This document shows positions 1,459 through 20,498 of a stretch of 20,498 nt of DNA, one piece after another. The stretch covers positions 1 through 20,498 of IMG/VR virus record IMGVR_UViG_3300047383_000769; one strand, written 5' to 3'. Under the pieces are notes generated by a model. It worked only from the letters and a program-made list of their open reading frames with translations, made no database searches and was not told where the DNA came from. The translations under genes were made by a program, and so were the position numbers. The DNA comes from a virus. The stretch's first letter is position 1, and every line of letters begins with the position of its first letter.

Positions 1459-2898
1459 ATGAATAAAAGTTTTAAACACCTTTCTAAAGACAAAAGGAAG
1501 AAGATATTATTACTTTGTGATGATATAAGAGTACATTCTGGGGTTGCAACTGTGGCTCAAGAAATTGTAATGCATACTTCCCATCATTTTAATTGGGTGC
1601 AAATAGCTGGAGCTATTAAACATCCTGATATTGGGAAAAAAATTGATTTAAGTCAAAGCATTATTGATAATACTAACACCCCGGATGCATCTGTAGTTTT
1701 ATACCCTACAAATGGTTATGGAACCCCTGATTTGCTTAGACAAATATTGAAGATAGAAAAACCAGATGCTATTATGCTTATTACAGACCCAAGGTATTTT
1801 ACTTGGGTGTTTAATATGGAACATGAAATCCGTAAAAATATTCCTATTACGTATTTAAATATTTGGGATGATTATCCTGCTCCAATGTATAATAAAGCAT
1901 ACTATGAGGCATGTGATCTATTAATGGGGATTTCAAAACAAACCGTCAATATAAATAAAATTGTATTAGGTAATAAGGCTAAAAATAAAGTATTTAAATA
2001 CGTTCCTCATGGTTTAAACCCAGATATTTATAAACCTATAAACCCTGAAGATAAAGAATTAAAAAAATTTAAAATAAATTTCTTTAATAAAGACATCCCA
2101 GAATTTATCGTATTTTTTAATTCTAGAAATATTAGGAGAAAACAAATACCAGATACAATGTTAGCCTTTAGAGCATTTTTAGATACACTTCCTAAAGAAA
2201 AGGCTGATAAATGTAAAATGGTATTACATACAGAGGCAGTTACTGATGCTGGTACCGATTTATATAAAGTAAAAGAATATTTTTTTGATGAAAATTACCC
2301 AAATGCTATAAAATTTTCACATCAAAAATTATCCCAACAGGAATTAAACTATTTATATAATATTGCTGATGTCCAAATATTATTAACTTCAAACGAAGGT
2401 TGGGGGCTAACCATTACTGAAGCTATTTTAGCTGGTACCCCCATTATTGCTAATACAACGGGAGGGATGCAAGACCAAATGAGATTTACTGACGAAAATG
2501 GAAAATGGTTTACCCCCTCCCCAGATGTCCCTTCTAACCATAAAAGCACCTACAAAAAGCATGGTGAATGGGCATTTCCTGTTTACCCCGCTTGTAGATC
2601 CATCCAAGGTTCTCCCCCAACCCCCTATATTTTTGATGATAGATGTAAATGGGAAGATGCTACTGAAAGACTAGTTGAAGTTTATAATTTACCTAAAGAA
2701 GAAAGAAAACAGTTGGGATTAAAAGGTAGAGAATGGGCTATTAGTAATGAAGCTGGATTTACATCTAAACATCAAGCCAATAGAGTAATGGAAGCATTTG
2801 ATGAGTTGTTTAATACTTGGAAGCCAAGAGAAAAGTATGAATTAATTAACGCCACAGAATTTAAAGGAAATTTTTTAAAACATAAAATTTATTATTAA
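1459..2898 (+). CDS. GT-B glycosyltransferase (GT4/GT1-like)
   Basis: A 479-residue glycosyltransferase of the GT-B fold, predicted to transfer a sugar from a nucleotide-sugar donor. The N-terminal half carries a Rossmann-like strand (KILLLCDDI) followed by a HSGVATVAQEI helix, typical of the acceptor-binding domain. The C-terminal half has FNSRNIRRKQ near 220-229 and the E-x7-E donor-site signature (Glu313 and Glu321) in SNEGWGLTITEAILAGTP. An extended tail follows the catalytic region. It opens a run of glycan genes and its stop overlaps the next start by one base. Family membership is clear; donor, acceptor and product cannot be read from sequence. Possible targets are host surface glycan, virion protein or modified DNA. 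Confidence 0.88.
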   Translation: MNKSFKHLSKDKRKKILLLCDDIRVHSGVATVAQEIVMHTSHHFNWVQIAGAIKHPDIGKKIDLSQSIIDNTNTPDASVVLYPTNGYGTPDLLRQILKIEKPDAIMLITDPRYFTWVFNMEHEIRKNIPITYLNIWDDYPAPMYNKAYYEACDLLMGISKQTVNINKIVLGNKAKNKVFKYVPHGLNPDIYKPINPEDKELKKFKINFFNKDIPEFIVFFNSRNIRRKQIPDTMLAFRAFLDTLPKEKADKCKMVLHTEAVTDAGTDLYKVKEYFFDENYPNAIKFSHQKLSQQELNYLYNIADVQILLTSNEGWGLTITEAILAGTPIIANTTGGMQDQMRFTDENGKWFTPSPDVPSNHKSTYKKHGEWAFPVYPACRSIQGSPPTPYIFDDRCKWEDATERLVEVYNLPKEERKQLGLKGREWAISNEAGFTSKHQANRVMEAFDELFNTWKPREKYELINATEFKGNFLKHKIYY

Positions 2899-4175
2899 TG
2901 AATAAACCAGTTTTTGTAATTAGCTGCCCATTTGATACCTATTCAGGGTATGGAGCTCGTTCTCGTGATATTGTCAAGTCTATTATTAATACCCAAAGGT
3001 ATGATGTAAAATTACTCGCTCAGAGGTGGGGAAATACCTCTTGGGACTTTTGTAAAGATCATCCTGAATGGGGGTTTTTATTAAGTTTACAAATCCAAAA
3101 ATTAGAATCTAAACCCGATATTTGGATGCAAATTACAATACCAAATGAATTTCAACCCGTTGGAAAATATAATATAGGATGTACTGCGGGTATTGAGGCT
3201 ACAGTATGTAAACCTGAATGGATCCAAGGGTTAAATAGAATGGATTTAAATTGGGTTTCATCTACATTTGCTAAGGGAATGTTTGAAAGCATGAATTTTG
3301 AAAAAAGAAATAAACAAACCCAAGCATTAGAAGAGCATATCCAATTAAATAAGCCAATAGAAGTAATATTTGAAGGGGCAAATTTGGATGTTTATAAATC
3401 AATCCCAAGTGGTGAAATTAAAACAATTAATTTAGAGGATATTAAAGAATCATTTTGTTATTTAAATGTAGGACATTGGATTCAAGGTGAATATGGTCAT
3501 GATAGAAAAAATTTAGCAGTATTAATTAGATCATTTTATGAATCATTTAAAGGGATGTCAAAAACCAAACCTGCTTTAATTTTAAAAGCTTCAATGGGTG
3601 TAGCATCTTATATGAGTAGAGAAAACATTTTAGATAAAATTAAATCCATTAAAAATACAATTAACTCATCTTCACTACCCAATATTTATTTACTTAATGG
3701 AGAATTTAATGACCAAGAGATGAATGAATTATATAACCATCCTAAAGTAAAAGCAATGGTTAGCTTAACAAAAGGGGAGGGATATGGCCGTCCTTTACTA
3801 GAATTTAGCCTTACAGGCAAACCTATAATAGCATCAGGATGGTCAGGACATTTGGATTTTTTAAAACCTGATTTTAGTACTTTACTTCCTGGGGAATTAG
3901 AAAATGTACATAAAAGTGCTGCTAATAACTGGTTAATAGAAGAAGCCCAATGGTTTAAACCTTCATTACCTGCAGTAAATCAAAACCTAAAATCTTGTTA
4001 TAAAAAGTATAAACAATATAATTTAAAATCTAAAAAACAAAAGAACTTTAGTAAATCTAATTTTAGTTATAGTAAAATGGAAGAATTAGTAGATGAAACA
4101 CTACAAAAATATGTTCCAAACTTTGCAACTCAATTAAATTTTAATTTACCTAAATTAGAATTACCAACTTTATAA
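2898..4175 (+). CDS. GT-B glycosyltransferase, second copy type
   Basis: A 425-residue glycosyltransferase, also GT-B, translationally coupled to the previous gene through TAATG. The N-terminus has a CPFDTYSGYGARSRDI segment of the kind that forms the acceptor-domain glycine-rich loop. The donor-site signature is KGEGYGRPLLEF, with Glu294 and Glu302 forming E-x7-E, followed by TGKPIIASGWSGHLDFL. A middle insertion rich in Lys and Asn separates the two domains. It is not a close duplicate of its neighbour: lengths and internal segments differ, so the two probably make different linkages. Membrane segments and signal peptides are absent, so a cytoplasmic role is expected. The substrate is unknown. 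Confidence 0.85.
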   Translation: MNKPVFVISCPFDTYSGYGARSRDIVKSIINTQRYDVKLLAQRWGNTSWDFCKDHPEWGFLLSLQIQKLESKPDIWMQITIPNEFQPVGKYNIGCTAGIEATVCKPEWIQGLNRMDLNWVSSTFAKGMFESMNFEKRNKQTQALEEHIQLNKPIEVIFEGANLDVYKSIPSGEIKTINLEDIKESFCYLNVGHWIQGEYGHDRKNLAVLIRSFYESFKGMSKTKPALILKASMGVASYMSRENILDKIKSIKNTINSSSLPNIYLLNGEFNDQEMNELYNHPKVKAMVSLTKGEGYGRPLLEFSLTGKPIIASGWSGHLDFLKPDFSTLLPGELENVHKSAANNWLIEEAQWFKPSLPAVNQNLKSCYKKYKQYNLKSKKQKNFSKSNFSYSKMEELVDETLQKYVPNFATQLNFNLPKLELPTL

Positions 4176-4185
4176 AAATTATAAT

Positions 4186-4602
4186 ATGCAATACGATGAT
4201 TTGAAAGAATGTACTAGGTGTGGTTCTGATGCCTGTTATGTCCAAGAAGTTACAAAGGATATAAAGATAGAATTATGCTATGGTTGTGGTTTCCAAAGTA
4301 ATAGTATAATAAAAAAAGATAATACATTCTATAATGAGCAAATAGAAACTCTTCCTGAATTATATAAAGAATTAATGGATGAAGAAGAGGAAACTGGAAA
4401 AATTTGGATGCCCACCCACATTAATGTAAAAGATAAGGGAACAGTATTTGCTATAGGAAGTAGCCGTAATGATTGGGCTTGGGCTGGAGTAAAAGCTATT
4501 AAAGATAAAGAAAAAGGATATAAAACTGATATGTCTACTGTAAAATATTTTAAAGAACGTGATTTTATAGAAGCTTTATCGTATATTCAAGTTATACCAT
4601 GA
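4186..4602 (+). CDS. Zinc-ribbon protein of unknown function
   Basis: A 138-residue protein with a clear N-terminal zinc-ribbon pattern: C9-x2-C12 with a further Cys17, then C32-x2-C35 (LCYGCGF). The rest is acidic in the middle (DEEEETG) and ends with a segment containing KGTVFAIGSSRNDWAWAGVKAI. From memory, similar zinc-ribbon proteins with an N-x-x-x-K-G-T-V-F segment occur in marine myoviruses, where no function has been assigned. It lies inside the glycan cassette but has no glycan-related motif. It overlaps the next gene by four bases (ATGA). I do not assign a function beyond probable zinc binding. Confidence 0.7.
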   Translation: MQYDDLKECTRCGSDACYVQEVTKDIKIELCYGCGFQSNSIIKKDNTFYNEQIETLPELYKELMDEEEETGKIWMPTHINVKDKGTVFAIGSSRNDWAWAGVKAIKDKEKGYKTDMSTVKYFKERDFIEALSYIQVIP

Positions 4603-5039
4603 AATTAGGAAATTTAATAGAAAAAATAATATCTATACTTACTTTAGGCCAAGGTAAAAGGTTAGCTATGTATATAGCTAAATTAAGAGGTAAGGAGGAT
4701 TGTGGTTGTAACAGAAGAAAACAAAAATTAAATAATATAAATTTTAAATCGATGTCAGTAGTATCAACCCCACTTAATTTAGATTGGTCATCTAAATGGA
4801 ATGAAGTTAGAAGCCAAGTTGGATGTTCTTGTGAATTTGATTATGCTATTTTAATAGTTAAGGATAAACAAGGTAATTCAATACATGAGGAAAAATTAAT
4901 GGCTATCCCTTACATGAATGGTCATTTATCAAAAAAAGAAATCTCATTACCCTCTTTTGTAACTCCCCATTCTTACAGCTTACAATTCCATAAAAAAAAT
5001 GAAAATGAATTCATTAACCCTGTAAATATAAATCTATAA
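4599..5039 (+). CDS. Hypothetical protein with CxC-basic motif
   Basis: A 146-residue protein I cannot assign. The N-terminus (about 1-35) is an amphipathic stretch with LTLGQGKRLAMYIAKL, followed by a compact CGCNRRKQKLN motif near 35-45. A second Cys pair (GCSC, near 76) sits in a mixed alpha/beta C-terminal region, so metal binding is conceivable. No signal peptide is evident. The gene starts inside the end of the zinc-ribbon gene and its stop overlaps the following glycosyltransferase start by one base, so the three are almost certainly co-translated. The GQGKR segment is not a P-loop, as it lacks the GxxxxGK[ST] spacing. Confidence 0.65.
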   Translation: MKLGNLIEKIISILTLGQGKRLAMYIAKLRGKEDCGCNRRKQKLNNINFKSMSVVSTPLNLDWSSKWNEVRSQVGCSCEFDYAILIVKDKQGNSIHEEKLMAIPYMNGHLSKKEISLPSFVTPHSYSLQFHKKNENEFINPVNINL

Positions 5040-5671
5040 TGAAAATAAGTTACGGAATAACAGTTTGTAATGAGCATTTAGAACTTCAATATCTTATAGA
5101 GTTTTTATCTCCTATAATTGATAAAGAGGATGAAATAGTAATTGTTTATGATAAAAATAGAGTTACAGATGAGGTATTAGATATACTAGACCAACACCAA
5201 GATAAAGTAAGTGCCTTCCCATTTGATTTTAAACAAAACTTTTTGGAGAATAAAAATTATTTAGGAAGCGAATGTAAAGGAGATTATATATTCCAAATAG
5301 ATGCTGATGAGATTCCTAATGAGTTTTTAGTAAAGAATTTAAAAACAATACTAGATTCAAATAATGTTGATATGTTGGTAGTTCCTAGAAAAAACATAGT
5401 AAAAGGATTAACCCAATCTTATATTAATATCTGGGGGTGGAATGTTAATGAAAAAGGATGGGTTAATTGGCCAGATCAACAAAAAAGAATTTATAAAAAT
5501 AATCCTAAAATACAATGGTCAGGACATCAAGTCCATGGTATGGTAGAAGGATACGATACTTTTGCAGTGTTACCTTTAGAAGAAGGCTTTAGTATTACTC
5601 ATAATAAAACAATTGATCGTCAAGTAAAACAAAATGAAAGATATTCTAAAATAGAACAAAATAAGTTATGA
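5039..5671 (+). CDS. GT-A glycosyltransferase (GT2-like)
   Basis: A 210-residue GT-A fold glycosyltransferase of the GT2 type. It opens with ISYGITVCNE, the typical first strand and loop, has a strand EIVIVYD around 32-38, and shows the metal- and donor-binding QIDADEIP motif with Asp88 and Asp90 as the DxD pair. A later SGHQVHGMVEG segment with His residues is similar to the region after the acceptor site in short GT2 enzymes that act on surface glycans. The length is near the lower end for GT2. No membrane helices are visible, so it is probably soluble. It is coupled to genes on both sides (TAATG upstream, ATGA downstream). The sugar and acceptor are unknown. Confidence 0.85.
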   Translation: MKISYGITVCNEHLELQYLIEFLSPIIDKEDEIVIVYDKNRVTDEVLDILDQHQDKVSAFPFDFKQNFLENKNYLGSECKGDYIFQIDADEIPNEFLVKNLKTILDSNNVDMLVVPRKNIVKGLTQSYINIWGWNVNEKGWVNWPDQQKRIYKNNPKIQWSGHQVHGMVEGYDTFAVLPLEEGFSITHNKTIDRQVKQNERYSKIEQNKL

Positions 5672-6492
5672 GTAAATTTAAAGTAGGAGTTATAGGTAAC
5701 GGTTTTGTAGGGGAGAGTCAAGCATTTGCTTTTACCCCAACAACAGACTTAAGAATATATGATATTGACCCACTCAAAGCTACCCATACTAAAGAAGAAA
5801 TAGATGAATGTGATTTTATATTCGTATGTGTACCAACACCTATGAAAAAAGATGGATCCCAAGATATTTCATTTATAGATAAAATATTTGATGAAGCAGT
5901 TCAAGGGCCTATTTATATTATTAAGTCAACCATACTCCCTGGTACTACTAAGAGATTAATGGGGATGTATCCTGACCTAGAAATAGTTTTTTGTCCTGAA
6001 TTTTTAACTGAGAGAACTGCTAAGTTAGATATGCTTACTCAAGCAAGAATAGTATTAGGAGGAGAAAAAAGAGATACTAAAAAAGTAAAAGAATTATTCG
6101 AGCAGAGGTTTATGAATCGACATATAATTGAAACCGATCCAACAACTGCTGAACTAATTAAATATATGAATAATACTTTCTTTGCTACTAAAGTTAGTAT
6201 TATAAATGAATTTAAATTATTAGCTGATAAATTAGGGGCAAATTGGAAGGATGCATTGTATGGATTTACCTCAGATGGTAGAATAGGAGATAGCCACTTG
6301 CATGTTCCAGGACCAGATGGTAGATTAGGATATGGTGGTACTTGTTTCCCAAAAGATGTTAATGCTTTAATAACGTTAGCTAAAGAATTAGGTACGCCTC
6401 TTAATACTATAGAGGGGGGATGGGTAACAAATTTAATAGTGCGACCTGAAAAAGATTGGGAAGCAGATAAAGGTAGAGCAGTAAGTAAATAA
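5668..6492 (+). CDS. UDP-glucose/GDP-mannose 6-dehydrogenase family, short form
   Basis: A nucleotide-sugar dehydrogenase that would oxidise a UDP- or GDP-hexose to the uronic acid using NAD+. Seen: the Rossmann motif GVIGNGFVG (G10, G12, G15), an acidic DID at 32-34, CVPTP at 54-58, CPEF at 109-112, Lys165 and Asn169 in the central helix region, and the catalytic cysteine Cys226 in GYGGTCFPKD. Odd: at 274 residues it ends shortly after this motif, while usual family members run to about 390-450 and have a third, C-terminal UDP-binding domain. The stop at 6490-6492 precedes a normally spaced next gene, so I read this as a genuine short form, not an obvious frameshift. Product is probably UDP-glucuronate or a related uronate, feeding the neighbouring epimerase and transferases. 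Confidence 0.88.
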   Translation: MSKFKVGVIGNGFVGESQAFAFTPTTDLRIYDIDPLKATHTKEEIDECDFIFVCVPTPMKKDGSQDISFIDKIFDEAVQGPIYIIKSTILPGTTKRLMGMYPDLEIVFCPEFLTERTAKLDMLTQARIVLGGEKRDTKKVKELFEQRFMNRHIIETDPTTAELIKYMNNTFFATKVSIINEFKLLADKLGANWKDALYGFTSDGRIGDSHLHVPGPDGRLGYGGTCFPKDVNALITLAKELGTPLNTIEGGWVTNLIVRPEKDWEADKGRAVSK

Positions 6493-6495
6493 ATT

Positions 6496-6981
6496 ATGGA
6501 AATAAAAATAAACCAATCCAATTTAAACAACTCCGCAATTTCTACAGAAATGTTTTTATGGGTGATACATAATATTGAATTTAATTCTACAATATTAGAG
6601 CTAGGAAGTGGTAGCGGTACAAAAGAATTAACTAAGTATTATACTGTTTATTCTATAGAACAAGATCAAAAGTGGATTAATTATGCTGAGGATTCTAATT
6701 ACATACATGCTCCTATTAAAAATGGGTGGTATGATTCTGATATAGTTTTTAAAAATATTCCTTCTAGCTATAGTCTATTACTTGTAGATGGACCTGGAGG
6801 TACGGGTAATAGAGAAGGGATAAAACAATATTGGGATAAATTTAATGTTGATGTCCCTATAATAATGGATGATACCCACAGAGAAGCAGAACTAAGATTT
6901 GCCGAAGAAACAGCCCAAACCCTAAATAAAAAAATAACAATAATCCCAGGCCATCAAAAATCATTTGCATTACTGTTATGA
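6496..6981 (+). CDS. Class I SAM-dependent methyltransferase-like protein
   Basis: A 161-residue protein with a class I methyltransferase motif I, ILELGSGSG (35-41 core), an acidic residue after the second strand (SIEQDQKW, Glu55), and a LLLVDGPGG strand at about 95-102 that corresponds to motif IV. MDDTHRE follows near 124-130. The general layout (VDGP then a DD-x-H segment) resembles small methyltransferases acting on sugars, including uronic acid O-methyltransferases, but the substrate cannot be fixed. It lies between the dehydrogenase and the epimerase, and overlaps the epimerase start by four bases, so a role in methylating a sugar of the same glycan is a reasonable inference. Confidence 0.78.
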   Translation: MEIKINQSNLNNSAISTEMFLWVIHNIEFNSTILELGSGSGTKELTKYYTVYSIEQDQKWINYAEDSNYIHAPIKNGWYDSDIVFKNIPSSYSLLLVDGPGGTGNREGIKQYWDKFNVDVPIIMDDTHREAELRFAEETAQTLNKKITIIPGHQKSFALLL

Positions 6982-7841
6982 CAAAAAAGAAAATATTAGT
7001 TACTGGGGGAGTTGGGTTTATAGGCACTGCCTTAATTAAAAAACTCTTAAATGAAGGACATAATGTTCATTCGTTAGATAATTATGAAATAGGTCTAAAA
7101 GAAAATGAACAACCTGGATGTCATTACCATATAGGAGATATTGAAAATATAAACTTAATGGATAAAGACTTTGATTTAATTTTCCATTTAGCAGCTCTAT
7201 CCAGAATACAACCTTCATTTAATAACCCAAATGAAACCTTTAGGGTTAATACTATTGGAACACAAAGAATATGTGAATTTGCTAGGTTAATTGGAGCTAA
7301 AGTTATATACTCTGGTTCTTCTTCTAGATGGCATAATCCATACCAATCACCTTATGCTGCATGTAAACATATGGGGGAAGAAGCATGCAAAATGTATAGG
7401 AAAACTTATGGGATGGATATTGAGATTGTCCGTTTTTATAATGTTTATGGCCCAGGTGAAATAGTAGATGGAGATTGGGCAGCAGTTATAGGTAAATGGA
7501 GACGTCAGGTTAGAGATGGGGAACCAATAACTATTGTAGGTGATGGTGAACAACGTAGAGATTTTACTTATATTGATGATATTATAGATGGGTTGTGGAA
7601 AATTGGAATGAAAAATATTAAACATAAAGACGGATGGGAGTTAGGAACGGGACAAAATTATTCTATTAATGAAGTTTATTTAATGTTTAAAGAAAGATTT
7701 GGAGTTGATTTTACCTCCCTCCCAAATCAATCCGGAAATTATAGAAAAACATTAAGAGAAAATGATGATAGTTTAAAAGAATTAAATTGGTCCCCTTCAG
7801 ATAAATTAAGAGATTATATATTAAGTTTAAATAAACATTAG
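6978..7841 (+). CDS. NAD-dependent sugar epimerase/dehydratase (extended SDR)
   Basis: An extended short-chain dehydrogenase/reductase of 287 residues acting on a nucleotide sugar. Seen: the N-terminal NAD-binding motif GGVGFIG (G10, G13, G16), HLAALSR near 70-76, a SGSSSR segment near 112-117 supplying the catalytic Ser, and the catalytic SPYAACK with Tyr126 and Lys130. The C-terminal domain has RFYNVYGPGE, IVGDGEQRRDFTYIDD and LGTGQNYSINE, standard for epimerases and 4,6-dehydratases of this family. With a uronate-forming dehydrogenase two genes upstream, UDP-glucuronate 4-epimerase is one plausible role, but dehydratase or other epimerase activity is not excluded. A clear paralogue starts at 19816. 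Confidence 0.88.
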   Translation: MTKKKILVTGGVGFIGTALIKKLLNEGHNVHSLDNYEIGLKENEQPGCHYHIGDIENINLMDKDFDLIFHLAALSRIQPSFNNPNETFRVNTIGTQRICEFARLIGAKVIYSGSSSRWHNPYQSPYAACKHMGEEACKMYRKTYGMDIEIVRFYNVYGPGEIVDGDWAAVIGKWRRQVRDGEPITIVGDGEQRRDFTYIDDIIDGLWKIGMKNIKHKDGWELGTGQNYSINEVYLMFKERFGVDFTSLPNQSGNYRKTLRENDDSLKELNWSPSDKLRDYILSLNKH

Positions 7842-7844
7842 GGT

Positions 7845-8591
7845 ATGAAATTAACAGTGTACACAGCATTGTTTGCAGATGAAAGTTTACATTTAAAGGA
7901 TGTAGGAGAATTTTATCCTTTTAACCATAATAAAGATGATGTTACTTATGTAGCTTTTACTAATAGAGATGATCTAGAATCTAAATTTTGGGATGTGCAT
8001 TATATACCTATTGAAGAAGGATTATCCCCTAGGATGATGTCTAGAAAAATTAAATGGAACCCAACTCAATATTTAGAAAATTTTACCCATACTATATGGA
8101 TGGATTCACAATGTTATTTTAAAGTTGAACCTAAGGCTATTGTGGATTACATTCTACAAAGCGAGTACCACACTGCAATCCATCACCACACAGACCTACA
8201 AAGTACATATTCAGAAGGAATGCTACAGTGTTATTATTATGGTTTAGATAAACCCTCAATTATTAACCCTCAAATGGAAAAATATTTTAAAGAAGGATTA
8301 CCTTATAAATATGACCATTATGAAACAGGCATTTTAATCAGGAAAAACTGTGATGAATCTAATCAATTATCAGAAAATGTATGGAACGAATTACAAAATC
8401 ACAGTATTAGAGACCAATTAAGTACCCCTTATTGTGTATTTAAAGCTAGACAAAATGGAGATAAAGGTATAAAAACTATACCTGAATCTTTTACAGCTCA
8501 TAAGGGGGGTTTACCTTTACCTAAATCCCAAATATTTTTTACAGTACCAAAACCATCCGAAAAACTTAAAGAGAATTTGGATAATAGATAA
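7845..8591 (+). CDS. DUF616-like glycosyltransferase
   Basis: A 248-residue protein that resembles the DUF616 family (relatives of plant TOD1/MUCI70-type proteins), thought to be glycosyltransferases. Seen: an opening strand LTVYTALFADES, DVTYVAFTN, an R-x-x-K-x-K-W segment (MMSRKIKWNP, about 64-73), a TIWMDSQ motif with Asp87 in the usual DxD position, a HHHTD stretch at 113-117, and a HYETGILIRK segment. The sequence pattern R..K..P followed by IWxD is what supports the family call. It is the last gene of the glycan cassette, and the -33 element of the next promoter lies inside its final codons. Acceptor and donor are unknown. Confidence 0.7.
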   Translation: MKLTVYTALFADESLHLKDVGEFYPFNHNKDDVTYVAFTNRDDLESKFWDVHYIPIEEGLSPRMMSRKIKWNPTQYLENFTHTIWMDSQCYFKVEPKAIVDYILQSEYHTAIHHHTDLQSTYSEGMLQCYYYGLDKPSIINPQMEKYFKEGLPYKYDHYETGILIRKNCDESNQLSENVWNELQNHSIRDQLSTPYCVFKARQNGDKGIKTIPESFTAHKGGLPLPKSQIFFTVPKPSEKLKENLDNR

Positions 8592-8632
8592 ACCTTTCGT
8601 ATATTTACACCTAATTTAAAGGTTATATATTT
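8577..8632 (+). promoter_or_regulatory. Promoter with short leader (family member 1)
   Basis: TTG at 8577-8579, then exactly 20 bases, then TATATTTAC at 8600-8608, matching a Bacteroidota-type -33/-7 promoter. The leader AAAGGTT at 8618-8624 lies 18 bases after the start of the -7 box. It drives the zinc-ribbon gene at 8633. The -33 element lies within the last codons of the preceding gene. Confidence 0.75.
8591..8624. repeat. 7-bp inverted repeat flanking the -7 box
   Basis: AACCTTT at 8591-8597 and AAAGGTT at 8618-8624 are perfect reverse complements separated by 20 bases that include the TATATTTAC box. In RNA only the right arm would be present if transcription starts after the -7 box, so any function would be at the DNA level, for instance binding of a dimeric regulator. 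It may also be chance, since the right arm is the conserved leader motif. Confidence 0.4.
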
Positions 8633-8983
8633 ATGCGACAGACTATTAAAACACCTATTAAAATGAAAATGATTCCTTGTATTAAATGTAGTTCTCCTAT
8701 GCCCGAATTAAGGTTAACTAAATTTGGTTATAAAGTTTGTGTTAACTGCTCAACAGTAGGTACTAAACGTGGTATTCCCGTAATGAGAGGATCAGGTGAT
8801 CATACTTGGACTGAAACTATTATTATGGAAGAGGACCAATATGAAGAATTTGTAGTAGCATCTGCACTTGAACGTGGAGATAAAAATGCTGCTAAAGCAG
8901 AAATGTTAAATATGGATAAAGAAGATCGTAACTTACAAGGTCCATTTCAAATAATCAACAACACAGATAAAGATAGAACTTAG
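8633..8983 (+). CDS. Small zinc-ribbon protein, DksA/TraR-finger-like
   Basis: A 116-residue protein with a four-cysteine zinc ribbon near the N-terminus: C16-x2-C19 and C36-x2-C39 (CIKCSS ... KVCVNCS) enclosing PELRLTKFGYK. Both the spacing and the R-L between the pairs recall the C-terminal zinc finger of DksA/TraR proteins, but the long coiled coil of those proteins is missing. The rest is acidic and helical (EEDQYEEF, ERGDKNAAKAEML). It is the first gene after the promoter at 8577 and is followed two bases later by the HNH-like gene. A transcription-related role is inference; only zinc binding is well supported. Confidence 0.7.
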   Translation: MRQTIKTPIKMKMIPCIKCSSPMPELRLTKFGYKVCVNCSTVGTKRGIPVMRGSGDHTWTETIIMEEDQYEEFVVASALERGDKNAAKAEMLNMDKEDRNLQGPFQIINNTDKDRT

Positions 8984-8985
8984 TT

Positions 8986-9600
8986 ATGCCCAAACCAAAA
9001 CCATTATCTAAAGAAATGATAGTGGCGGCTCAAGCAAAAACTAAATCTAATATGGCCGCTGCAAGGTACTTGCATGTTTCTTATCAACATTATAAGAGGT
9101 ATGCTAAAATGTATAAGATATTTGAGGGCCATAAAAACCAAAGCGGTAAAGGTATACCTAAATTTTTAAAGGGTACAGGTAAAGAACCTGCACTTTTAGA
9201 TATTATTGAAGGAAGAGTATCATCAGCTCACTTTTCTCCTGCAAAAATAAAGTATCGTTTAATAGAAGAGGGATATTTATCAGAGCAATGCTCAATGTGT
9301 GGTTTCCAAGAACGTAGGGTACTCGATTATAAAATGCCCTTATTGTTACACTTCAAAGATAATAATAAATCAAATTACACACGCGATAACATTGAGTTAC
9401 TATGTTATAACCACTATTTTCTTACAGTTGGAGATATATTTACAGAGAAGGATGTTAAACAAATTGAATCACATCAAGAACACATAGGTACAACTGATAA
9501 AGTAGAATGGGAAGTAGATGATTATCATTTACAGCGTTTAAAAGAATTGGGCTTAGATGATAATGATGATGATGTTAACCAATATATATCTAGAATATGA
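8986..9600 (+). CDS. HNH endonuclease-like protein with N-terminal HTH
   Basis: A 204-residue protein. The N-terminal third contains NMAAARYLHVSYQHYKRYAKMYK (about 22-44), which looks like a helix-turn-helix. The centre carries an HNH-like zinc site: C102-x2-C105 (CSMCGF), then LLLHFKDNNKSN with His122, then DNIELLCYNHYF with Asn135, Cys140 and His143. The layout matches HNH nucleases with a treble-clef zinc site, except that the last ligand of the second CxxC knuckle is His, giving CYNH. From memory, marine T4-like phages have a closely similar protein ending LLCYNC. The tail is acidic (DDNDDDVN). It may be a homing-type or DNA-processing nuclease, or a non-catalytic zinc protein. No intron or intein is seen nearby. 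Confidence 0.75.
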   Translation: MPKPKPLSKEMIVAAQAKTKSNMAAARYLHVSYQHYKRYAKMYKIFEGHKNQSGKGIPKFLKGTGKEPALLDIIEGRVSSAHFSPAKIKYRLIEEGYLSEQCSMCGFQERRVLDYKMPLLLHFKDNNKSNYTRDNIELLCYNHYFLTVGDIFTEKDVKQIESHQEHIGTTDKVEWEVDDYHLQRLKELGLDDNDDDVNQYISRI

Positions 9601-16522: not shown

Positions 16523-16750
16523 ATGAAAGTAAAAAAACAAGTTTTACATTATTGTTTGGATCAAGCAAAAAGTTTTTATAAATTGGGTGAACGCGATAAG
16601 GCAAGAGACTATTGTGATATGGGAATTGGTTATGTAGCAGCGAAAAAGGAAGATGGTTGGGACGGAGAAGACCTAATTGAAGACGTTAAAATTAACTTAT
16701 GGTTAGAACGTTTTTGGATGTTTTTAGAAAATAAAAATTTAATGTTGTGA
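16523..16750 (+). CDS. Small helical hypothetical protein (75 aa)
   Basis: A 75-residue protein, mainly helical: KKQVLHYCLDQAKSFYKLG followed by RDKARDYCDMGIGYVAAKK and DLIEDVKINLWLERFWMFL. The first two helices have the small-residue spacing of a TPR-like helical pair, but one pair alone is not enough to name the family. It overlaps the following GTG-started gene by four bases (GTGA). Confidence 0.62.
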   Translation: MKVKKQVLHYCLDQAKSFYKLGERDKARDYCDMGIGYVAAKKEDGWDGEDLIEDVKINLWLERFWMFLENKNLML

Positions 16751-16899
16751 GTAGAATAGAAGAATTAGTATATAGTGCCCATGAACATGGTAAACGAACT
16801 GACTTATTTGATACGGTTACTAGAATTAAAACCCAAAACCCAAATATGAAGTTAGAGGATGTTTATGATAGAGCATACCAACAAGTAATGAATACATAG
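16747..16899 (+). CDS. Small helical protein, GTG start (50 aa)
   Basis: A 50-residue protein starting at GTG 16747, which overlaps the previous stop in a GTGA arrangement. It reads SRIEELVYSAHEHGKRTDLF, then DTVTRIKTQNPNMKLEDVYD, and ends RAYQQVMNT. From memory, cyanophages and related phages have a short protein with the same MSRIEELVYxA start. All-helical; function unknown. There is no ATG alternative that keeps the conserved start. Confidence 0.7.
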   Translation: MSRIEELVYSAHEHGKRTDLFDTVTRIKTQNPNMKLEDVYDRAYQQVMNT

Positions 16900-16901
16900 A
16901 T

Positions 16902-17276
16902 ATGAAGTTTGCATTAATAGCACATGATAACAAAAAAGCAGATATGGTTGCTTTTGTGTCAAAAAGATTACCATTCTTTAATAAAAAGGATGTACAAATT
17001 GTTACTACCGGGACTACAGGTGAAAAAGTTAAACATGCTGGGATTAAAGATGTAGAAACAGTTAATTCAGGCCCCATAGGTGGAGATGCTGAAATAGCGG
17101 CAATGGTGGTAAGGGGGGAAATAACTGCAGTATTATTTATGAGAGACCCACTCGATAAACACCCTCATGACGTTGATATTAATATGCTAATGAGACTCTG
17201 CGACGTCCATGATGTTCCTCTCGCTACCAATTATAGAACAGCAAGTATACTAATTAAATGGTTTAAAAATAAATGA
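16902..17276 (+). CDS. mgsA: Methylglyoxal synthase
   Basis: This 124-residue protein should convert dihydroxyacetone phosphate to methylglyoxal and inorganic phosphate in the cytoplasm. The match to MgsA is clear across its whole length: LIAHDNKK with His8 and Asp9, TTGTTG at 35-40 for phosphate binding, SGPIGGD with Asp62 as the expected catalytic base, FMRDPL with Asp82, HPHDVD with His89 and Asp92, and PLATNYRTA near 106-114. These correspond to E. coli His19, Asp20, Asp71, Asp91, His98 and Asp101. It ends about 28 residues earlier than the E. coli enzyme but keeps the whole active site. The same fold occurs in carbamoyl phosphate synthase and IMP cyclohydrolase domains, but those lack this full motif set. 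It is embedded among phage genes, two bases after the preceding stop and overlapping the next gene by four. Confidence 0.92.
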   Translation: MKFALIAHDNKKADMVAFVSKRLPFFNKKDVQIVTTGTTGEKVKHAGIKDVETVNSGPIGGDAEIAAMVVRGEITAVLFMRDPLDKHPHDVDINMLMRLCDVHDVPLATNYRTASILIKWFKNK

Positions 17277-17632
17277 AAATAAATAGTCTATTTATAGGGT
17301 TAACCTTATTTTGTATTGCCCATATACTTACCTTCTACCAACTTAATGGTCAGTTTTTGAAAACAACAGATTGGTTTAAAAAGAATGAATTTATTGTAGC
17401 AGCATTTGGAATTATATTATCTTTTTTTTATATTTGGGGAACTAAATATACTGTACAAGGTATGGATGGGTTATTATGGCCTGCTCGCTTTATTGGGTTT
17501 GGAATAGGAATGGTATTTTATGCTTTATTAGTTAATTACCACTTCAATGAAGGTATTAGTACTAAAACTTGGATTAGCTTACTATTATCAGTTTTATTAA
17601 TTTGTATACAAGTATTATGGAAAAACAAGTAA
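17273..17632 (+). CDS. Four-helix membrane protein
   Basis: A 119-residue protein with about four transmembrane segments: SLFIGLTLFCIAHILTFY, FIVAAFGIILSFFYIWG, FIGFGIGMVFYALLVNYHF and ISLLLSVLLICIQVLW. Between helices are FKKNEF and the loop KYTVQGMDGLLWPARFIG. From memory, marine phages commonly encode a small membrane protein with the pattern NGQFxWxxFKKN ... TKYxVxxxDGLLWPxR, whose function is unknown. It overlaps the methylglyoxal synthase stop by four bases and its own 3' end overlaps the following gene by 16. Confidence 0.78.
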   Translation: MKINSLFIGLTLFCIAHILTFYQLNGQFLKTTDWFKKNEFIVAAFGIILSFFYIWGTKYTVQGMDGLLWPARFIGFGIGMVFYALLVNYHFNEGISTKTWISLLLSVLLICIQVLWKNK

Positions 17633-18258
17633 ACCTAAATTTAATTACAGGAATATTCTATTCAGAACACCAATTAAATATAGAACATGATTCAATAGTA
17701 AAAGAAGTAAAAGAATCTAGAGAATTTCCAGACAAATACCCATCAGATTTTAGTTTTAGAGGTAAATATTATGAAGAAGGTGAAGTTCATCATACCTTTT
17801 ATGAAGATACTAACTTATATAACCATACAGTTAAAAAAATAATGACCCCATTAAAAGAACTAATAGATGGAATATTTGGGGAAGATATGCTATTTTGTAA
17901 TGAAATGTGGGGTCATATAGTATACCCAGGGGATCAAACAATGGTACATGACCATAGACAAAATATACCTATTCCAGGATTATCTTTTGCTTACTATCCT
18001 CACGTTCTTGAAAATGGGGGTAATATTCATTTTATTACTGATGTAAATGGAAAAAAATGTAATTGTCCTCATGTAATTAAAAAGGGAGATTTGATTTTGT
18101 TTTCAAATGAAATATTACATTATACCCCTAGAAATGGGTCTGATGAAATCCGAATAACTATTAGTGGTAATTTTATTCCTACTGATAAATTTTTAAAAAC
18201 ATTACAAGAAGATGAAGAGGGGATAAACCCTTATTGGTATTATCATGGAAAAATATAA
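17617..18258 (+). CDS. 2-oxoglutarate/Fe(II) oxygenase-like protein
   Basis: A 213-residue protein, probably a 2-oxoglutarate- and Fe(II)-dependent oxygenase. The core barrel shows MVHDHRQNIPIPGLSFAYYP, with the His111-Asp112-His113 region providing the first metal ligands, then GGNIHFI, KKGDLILFSNEILHY with His168 as the distal ligand, and EIRITISGNF with Arg179 as the 2-oxoglutarate-binding residue. The layout matches the phage-associated putative 2OG-Fe(II) family (Oxy_5 type). I start it at ATG 17617, as the longer TTG start (17602) would extend further into the membrane protein gene. Substrate unknown: modified DNA base, protein or small molecule are all possible. Confidence 0.75.
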   Translation: MEKQVNLNLITGIFYSEHQLNIEHDSIVKEVKESREFPDKYPSDFSFRGKYYEEGEVHHTFYEDTNLYNHTVKKIMTPLKELIDGIFGEDMLFCNEMWGHIVYPGDQTMVHDHRQNIPIPGLSFAYYPHVLENGGNIHFITDVNGKKCNCPHVIKKGDLILFSNEILHYTPRNGSDEIRITISGNFIPTDKFLKTLQEDEEGINPYWYYHGKI

Positions 18259-19240: not shown

Positions 19241-19380
19241 CACAAGAAGAAAAAAAAATCAAAGCCACTGAGCTAAGTAAACAGATCCTAGAATTGAAAA
19301 AATTAGGTCCAACTGTTACTACTAAAAAAACAATTCAAAGTTTACAACAAGAATTAGATAAATTAAATTATGCAACATAA
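19237..19380 (+). CDS. Small coiled-coil protein (47 aa)
   Basis: A 47-residue helical protein, MTQEEKKIKATELSKQILEL followed by KKTIQSLQQELDKLNYAT. Leu and Ile fall at heptad-like spacing in the last half, suggesting a short coiled coil. I use ATG 19237 because it overlaps the previous stop by four bases, the usual junction in this window. It overlaps the Smr gene start by 11 bases. Confidence 0.6.
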   Translation: MTQEEKKIKATELSKQILELKKLGPTVTTKKTIQSLQQELDKLNYAT

Positions 19381-19606
19381 GATTGATTTACATGGATTAA
19401 CTCATGATGAGGCAGCAAGGAAAGTAGAAACTGAACTTATAAGAATATCACTAACTAATTACTACCAAGTAGAAATTATAACAGGTAAATCTAAGTCAAT
19501 GCAAGATAAAATAATTAATGAGGTATTAGGACCCCTCAAATTTTTTTATTATATTCCCACTGTAAATGAGGGTACAATAATTGTTTGTCCAGATGATTTA
19601 TTATAA
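19370..19606 (+). CDS. Stand-alone Smr domain protein
   Basis: A 78-residue protein that is essentially only an Smr domain, the MutS2 C-terminal module with DNA-nicking or RNA-binding activity in known members. It begins MQHKIDLHGLTHDEAARKVE, giving the DLHGLT signature with His8, continues with VEIITGKSKSMQDKIINEVL in the place of the usual HGKG-G motif, and ends with a strand GTIIVCP. The second motif is altered (TGKS for HGKG), so catalytic activity may differ. It could act on recombination intermediates or mRNA. It follows a coiled-coil gene by overlap and precedes an unknown gene. Confidence 0.78.
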   Translation: MQHKIDLHGLTHDEAARKVETELIRISLTNYYQVEIITGKSKSMQDKIINEVLGPLKFFYYIPTVNEGTIIVCPDDLL

Positions 19607-19609
19607 AAT

Positions 19610-19819
19610 ATGACTTTATATTCTAACATAGTTTACAATAATAACATTGCTTATAAAATACTTGATATTATTGCAATACATAATTTTGTAGATAAAAAGG
19701 GTAATATAAATAAACAAGTATTAGGGATGTATGTACATGAAAAAGGTGGGGATCATGTATTACAAAGACAAGACAAATTTTTAATTTGTGAAACAATAGA
19801 AGAAGCAACAATAGTATGA
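19610..19819 (+). CDS. Small hypothetical protein (69 aa)
   Basis: A 69-residue protein, MTLYSNIVYNNNIAYKILDI then GNINKQVLGMYVHEKGGDHV and FLICETIEEATIV. Mixed strands and no recognisable family. The spacing (three bases after the Smr stop, ATGA overlap with the epimerase) supports it as a real gene. Confidence 0.6.
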   Translation: MTLYSNIVYNNNIAYKILDIIAIHNFVDKKGNINKQVLGMYVHEKGGDHVLQRQDKFLICETIEEATIV

Positions 19820-20498
19820 AACGTATATTAGTAACAGGAGCAGGTGGGTTTATAGGAAGCAATTTAATGAACTACCTAGCATTAGATAAAACAATATCAA
19901 TACAAGGTATGGATAACAACCCTCGTATTGATAATGAGTATATGATTCATTTAGATATAAAAAACATAAATAAATTAGCTTGGAAACCCGATATAATTTA
20001 TCATTTAGCAGCCCAATCTAAAGTACAGCAATCATTCGATGACCCTAAACAAAACGCAGAAGATAATGTAATGGGAACTCTAGCAGTATTAGAATATGCT
20101 AAAAAATGTAAATGTAAAGTAGTATATGCAGGTTCAGCTTCAAGACATACTGATCCATCCTCATCACCTTACGCCACTACAAAATATATGGGTGAAACAC
20201 TTTGTAAAATGTATAGAAAATGTTTTGGTGTAGATGTTGAAATAGCTAGATTTTATAATGCATATGGACCAAATGAATACTTACACCCTACTGAAAGTAA
20301 TGTAATTGGTATTTGGAGATATAATACCCAAAATAATATAAAGTGTAAAATAGTAGGTGATGGTGAACAAGAAAGAGACTTTATTCATGTTCAAGACATT
20401 GTTGAAGGGTTGGTTGCTATAGGGGATAGTATCTCAAGTCATGACGATGCCTGGGAATTAGGAACAGGCTCAACTTTAACTGTAAATAATTTAGCTAC
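19816..20498 (+). CDS. NAD-dependent sugar epimerase, second paralogue (partial)
   Basis: An extended SDR sugar epimerase or dehydratase, open at the right edge with 227 complete codons visible. Seen: the N-terminal GAGGFIG motif, HLAAQSKVQQSF, the catalytic SPYATTK (Tyr and Lys of Y-x3-K), RFYNAYGPNEYL, and VGDGEQERDFIHVQD, then LGTGSTLTVNN. It is clearly related to the epimerase at 6978 (shared CKMYRK, RFYN-x-YGP and VGDGEQ-x-RDF segments) but not identical, so it is a paralogue that probably acts on another sugar or step. It overlaps the preceding small gene by four bases. More sugar genes may follow beyond the window. Confidence 0.88.
   Translation, partial: MKRILVTGAGGFIGSNLMNYLALDKTISIQGMDNNPRIDNEYMIHLDIKNINKLAWKPDIIYHLAAQSKVQQSFDDPKQNAEDNVMGTLAVLEYAKKCKCKVVYAGSASRHTDPSSSPYATTKYMGETLCKMYRKCFGVDVEIARFYNAYGPNEYLHPTESNVIGIWRYNTQNNIKCKIVGDGEQERDFIHVQDIVEGLVAIGDSISSHDDAWELGTGSTLTVNNLA

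Follow-up and report, generated by a model that had tools for sequence, protein, structure and literature searches.

A predicted methylglyoxal synthase encoded by large phages, probably T4-type phages of Bacteroidota

Why would a phage carry a gene for methylglyoxal synthase (MgsA), an enzyme with a toxic product, and is the gene genuine, functional and kept? The question is raised by an open reading frame (ORF) in a window of 20,498 nucleotides, the whole stretch of DNA analysed here, which corresponds to positions 1 to 20,498 of the IMG/VR virus record IMGVR_UViG_3300047383_000769. The ORF, mgsA, occupies 16902..17276 on the plus strand, has an ATG start and a TGA stop, and encodes 124 amino acids plus the stop. 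Its assignment draws on the ORF itself, family models, matches to solved structures, an active-site alignment and a predicted model. The MgsA equivalog model NF003559 (NCBIfam) matches it with 146 bits (E 6e-43; cut-off 84 bits), and Pfam MGS matches it with 47.8 bits (cut-off 24.1). The TIGR00160 score of 138.8 is just under the cut-off of 146.9, presumably because the C-terminus is short. A phmmer search of solved structures returned methylglyoxal synthase chains only, the best being 8u2v (1e-33). These matches indicate that the product is almost certainly a methylglyoxal synthase.

Aligned with E. coli MgsA (a reference identical letter for letter to PDB 1b93), the window protein keeps H19, D20, K23, T45, T47, T48 and S65, and also G66, D71, D91, H98, D101 and R107 (E. 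coli numbering). The tested catalytic and phosphate-binding positions show no variation in any of 60 distinct phage MgsA proteins. Across the 98 distinct viral proteins, 11 active-site positions are invariant in 97; the single deviation, T47N, is found in loci L409-L411. The C-terminal tail of E. coli MgsA, with its R150, is missing from the window protein. R150 is likewise missing from 78 of 129 sampled cellular homologues, so the E. coli-type tail does not define the MgsA family as a whole. The AlphaFold2 model of the window protein, built from a 42-sequence alignment, has a pLDDT of 95.9 and matches the best solved MgsA structures (1wo8, 8u2v, 6f2c, 1b93) with TM 0.90-0.96 and an rmsd of about 1 Å. 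The MGS-like fold also serves as a ligand-binding regulatory domain, and weaker structural matches of the model are to carbamoyl phosphate synthetase (CPS), whose MGS-like domain is of this kind. The phage protein might then be a phosphate- or nucleotide-binding regulator that performs no catalysis. This is very unlikely, as the matches to MgsA are far stronger than those to CPS, and none of the catalytic residues varies across the phage clade, a constancy that binding alone would not call for. The first-pass annotation had described the gene at 16902 as a phage methylglyoxal synthase with an intact active site; family match, alignment and model agree with that description, and add that the site is invariant. 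The alignment suggests that the window enzyme is very probably active, and from known MgsA biochemistry its reaction would be the conversion of dihydroxyacetone phosphate (DHAP) to methylglyoxal and phosphate.

The gene is not peculiar to this record. MgsA is encoded in all 236 fetched viral loci, a set that includes some contigs fetched twice, and is therefore neither a chance ORF nor a single-contig chimera. In IMG/VR, relatives are encoded by at least 148 stretches in a single-sequence scan and by at least 324 in a profile scan, both counts being lower bounds because the scans use few peptide patterns. The earlier impression that mgsA is a rarity in phages does not hold, since the gene is recurrent and long maintained. 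Carrier contigs are as large as 155-310 kb, and the T4-type major capsid protein Gp23 is encoded in 16 of 19 large mgsA-carrying records. The virus record around the window gene, Gp23 and the surrounding phage genes place mgsA on genuine phage genomes and not on contaminating host DNA. Among deposited phages, the capsid protein of record G003 is nearest to that of an uncultured 462-kb phage (52%), followed by those of the Prevotella Lak megaphages (38%). Shared gene content ties the window to the Gp23-bearing phage group: 63 of 107 predicted G017 proteins are matched in G009 (Gp23-bearing), and 17 window proteins are matched there, among them MgsA, with the gene for the same membrane protein next after mgsA in G009. 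The mgsA-carrying group is one of large T4-type phages, probably with Bacteroidota hosts. G017, a relative of the window phage, also encodes a full-length GroEL/Cpn60 chaperonin (PF00118, 247 bits; L301:15831-17465, which is G017:35831-37465).

Within this group the distribution is patchy. The 26 records of capsid relatives, several being fragments, include 7 with mgsA, and large relatives of 139-236 kb exist that are without it. Its absence from many capsid relatives suggests an accessory rather than a core gene, and a benefit that is not universal. A second, unrelated phage type (L409-L411; L411:4992-5384) carries an E. coli-like MgsA with 62% identity to that of E. coli, which points to at least two acquisitions by viruses. 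Kept in hundreds of viral contigs, the gene is yet represented in neither PHROGs nor BFVD, nor in annotated deposited phages. No PHROG family matches the window protein, and no viral structure model in BFVD matches its predicted structure at E <= 0.001. INPHARED gave 22 MgsA matches with 32-45% identity, all to unannotated contigs, some of which are possibly host DNA; the one matching record examined carries no annotation, and no annotated, cultured carrier was found among the deposited phages searched there.

A tree of host and phage MgsA had been proposed in the first-pass annotation as a way to find the origin of the gene. It places most phage MgsA in one clade (support 100/99) related to the MgsA of Flavobacteriia and other Bacteroidota, and the strong support for this phage-dominated clade points to a long residence in phages. 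Most bacterial copies fall outside it. Five bacterial rows lie inside, namely Planktosalinus (L082), the Flavobacteriaceae MAGs L083-L085, and L086; in L082 to L084 the neighbours around mgsA are ordinary chromosomal genes. The AU test rejects a tree in which all phage copies share one origin and bacterial rows are kept out of their clade (p 0.001). It does not reject one in which L083-L085 alone are placed outside the phage clade (p 0.099), so that transfer from phage to bacterium is likely, not proven, for these copies. The MgsA alignment is short, at 127 columns, which leaves details of the tree uncertain. The most economical reading of the sequences would be that the gene was captured long ago from Bacteroidota, stayed in phages for a long time and went back to bacteria on a few occasions, and the nested bacterial copies suggest phages as donors of a glycolysis-linked enzyme. 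The nested MAG genes lie at L083:4977-5381, L084:4977-5381 and L085:4977-5396, and in L083 and L084 they stand beside groEL and DNA methylase-like genes.

The dN/dS of the window gene against its nearest relatives is 0.02-0.05; most pairs close to the window have values of 0.02-0.15, and the median over 500 pairs is 0.125. These low values indicate purifying selection, and mgsA appears to be a host-derived metabolic enzyme kept by selection in phages. Its absence from many capsid relatives and its differing neighbourhoods would also agree with accidental cargo, picked up recently from a host and of no benefit. The deep phage-dominated clade, the strong purifying selection and the lack of any broken copy among those seen make this extremely unlikely. 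The last point also bears on the earlier concern that the gene could be broken or replaced in related phages: all copies found are intact, and what is seen in many capsid relatives is absence.

In the window, mgsA has close neighbours on both sides. Directly upstream, a small plus-strand ORF at 16747..16899 (GTG start, stop at 16897-16899) encodes 50 amino acids, and from the spacing it probably forms one transcription unit with mgsA. Downstream, the ATG of a plus-strand ORF at 17273..17632 overlaps the mgsA stop codon (ATGA), which suggests translational coupling. The upstream ORF and this overlap together suggest a longer message as the probable template for translation of mgsA. The downstream ORF encodes a 119-amino-acid protein that is predicted from its sequence to lie in the membrane and that matched no Pfam or PHROG family. 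Its homologue in G009 is 71% identical and adjoins mgsA; those in G003, G006 and G017 are elsewhere in the genome. The next plus-strand gene, at 17602..18258, encodes a 2OG-Fe(II) oxygenase (phrog_81; weak Pfam 2OG-FeII_Oxy_5) and is regarded as a neighbour of mgsA only. In L162 and L164 a similar oxygenase ORF is at the same place after mgsA, and an mgsA-adjacent ORF resembles the 50-amino-acid ORF of the window. Other phages have short ORFs of this kind no more than a few genes away from mgsA. Matches to the T4-type late promoter motif TATAAATA and to sigma-70 promoters are at chance level in the AT-rich window. A Bacteroidota-type promoter pattern is at chance level in the window, G003, G017 and G009 and slightly above chance in G006. 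Farther away, the window holds a block of glycosyltransferase, UDP-glucose/GDP-mannose dehydrogenase and epimerase genes (1459-9600 and 19816-20498), whose order is largely conserved in G017 and G009, and a stand-alone Smr domain protein of 78 amino acids (19370-19606; PF01713, 30.5 bits).

Beyond the window, gene order around mgsA varies widely, and no constant partner gene was found in 57 phage loci. The commonest neighbours, a CTP_transf-like nucleotidyltransferase, an epimerase and a large upstream ORF, are each present in only about 10-11 of the 57 loci, and none was accepted as an operon partner. Such variation is expected of a stand-alone enzyme that acts on a host metabolite. In 10 of the 57 loci at most a few genes separate the CTP_transf-like gene from mgsA (L175:10647-11141, L227:9603-9998 and similar). 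Genes for thymidylate synthase, IMP dehydrogenase and nucleotidyltransferases are among the neighbours at some loci. In the G003 phage group, two ORFs just upstream of mgsA (G003:102573 and G003:103909) start with MK..F..FINE-like motifs, which resemble the sequences that target internal head proteins to the capsid in T4.

The hosts appear to be Bacteroidota, as suggested by the MgsA tree, the Lak-like capsid and the near absence of Shine-Dalgarno motifs. Such motifs are nearly absent before the starts in the window, G003, G017 and G009; some enrichment in G006 suggests that hosts may differ within the phage group. An MgsA match was found in 57 of 248 sampled Flavobacteriales genomes, a count that genome incompleteness may depress. 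Many hosts are probably without an MgsA of their own, and, if the hosts are as suggested, infection may often bring in an activity that the host does not have. Some Flavobacteriales with small genomes have two tandem MgsA-like genes (L265:1088-1501 and 1501-1863) after a GAPDH-like gene, and tandem pairs are also present in G028, G054, G072, G095 and G103.

What the enzyme would do for the phage can be framed from its chemistry. Active MgsA, made during infection, would convert host DHAP to methylglyoxal and inorganic phosphate. It would thereby act as a valve, reducing the store of triose phosphate and giving phosphate back at a time when nucleotides and sugar-nucleotides are being made by the phage; the methylglyoxal would be left to host detoxification or tolerated until lysis. 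This reading is favoured by MgsA chemistry, by the absence of fixed or detoxifying partners and by the nucleotide-metabolism neighbours. As a whole explanation it is given an even chance, and the narrower proposal that the phosphate and triose-phosphate valve is the main benefit is held tentatively, at a little under even. The family identity, catalytic residues, fold and long-term maintenance of the phage enzyme are firm as far as sequence comparison and a predicted model can make them; the benefit is surmised from them. Against the valve, the carbon price is high, at one DHAP for each phosphate freed, and the product is toxic. PhoH, considered as a phosphate partner, is uninformative: phages with mgsA have it, but so do relatives that lack mgsA, and it lends no specific support to a phosphate role. 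In favour of the valve, bacterial methylglyoxal production is thought to be important in phosphate limitation, where it frees phosphate from DHAP, and phosphate inhibits MgsA (PMC11850910).

A detoxification partner was also sought. Neither a glyoxalase I-type (PF00903) nor a DJ-1/PfpI (PF01965) protein was found in the 19 large mgsA-carrying records, so that detoxification would fall to the host. Methylglyoxal is a toxic electrophile (PMC11850910, PMC12096831), and the missing detoxification proteins and the lack of MgsA in most sampled Flavobacteriales would suit its use as a weapon that damages host DNA and proteins, halts host growth or harms co-infecting phages. It would, however, hit phage DNA and proteins equally, no protective partner gene accompanies mgsA, and the gene has no linkage to known host-takeover or exclusion genes. 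Use as a weapon is therefore unlikely. Also unlikely is a scenario in which a large group of T4-type phages, probably of Bacteroidota, brings the pathway as a deliberate toxin for host takeover or competition to hosts that mostly have no MgsA, with bacteria in turn having taken the phage gene into their chromosomes. Methylglyoxal could instead serve as a substrate, signal or redox lever (a thiol sink, a D-lactate/propanediol route or a precursor) that sustains carbon flow or stress responses. Overflow to methylglyoxal in Salmonella keeps glucose use going and provides a thiol sink during oxidative stress (PMC12096831), and sugar-nucleotide and glycosyltransferase genes are numerous in the phages. 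Against this, no methylglyoxal-using enzyme is found beside mgsA or through the two families searched, PF00903 and PF01965, and such a role is unlikely. Auxiliary metabolic genes reveal host reactions that limit phage growth. Under the valve reading, a conserved enzyme with a toxic product in hundreds of viral contigs would point to control of triose-phosphate and phosphate as a bottleneck of infection in what are probably Bacteroidota phages.

Viral mgsA has been named before. In Lake Baikal viromes it is an auxiliary metabolic gene on a 120-kb scaffold whose nearest phage is Caulobacter phage Cr30 (PMC8066274), and deep-sea brine pool viromes give it by gene symbol only (PMC11252502). Like the window gene, these are on viral scaffolds; in the passages that name it, both sources merely list mgsA and give neither a phylogeny or selection test nor a structure or function. 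No further account was found in the open literature searched, most subscription journals lying outside it. The enzyme and this kind of auxiliary metabolic gene are thus known, and the scale, the selection and the separate phage clade of mgsA appear to be undescribed.

The window protein has its fold and catalytic residues in common with the solved bacterial enzymes of Thermus (1wo8/2x8w), B. subtilis (6f2c), Borrelia (8u2v) and E. coli (1b93), and differs from them in being phage-encoded. Its length is close to that of the short-form MgsA of Thermus. Relative to E. coli MgsA and the solved relatives, it has a two-residue insertion near residue 27, which is also present in a Flavobacterium copy. 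The closest cellular relatives, which are of the same length class, are the chromosomal enzymes of Flavobacteriia (Planktosalinus, 69-70%; Flavobacterium, 53%). With neighbours named by eye from sequence, mgsA stands among glycolysis genes in Flavobacterium (L087) and follows a GAPDH gene in G063 (L265).
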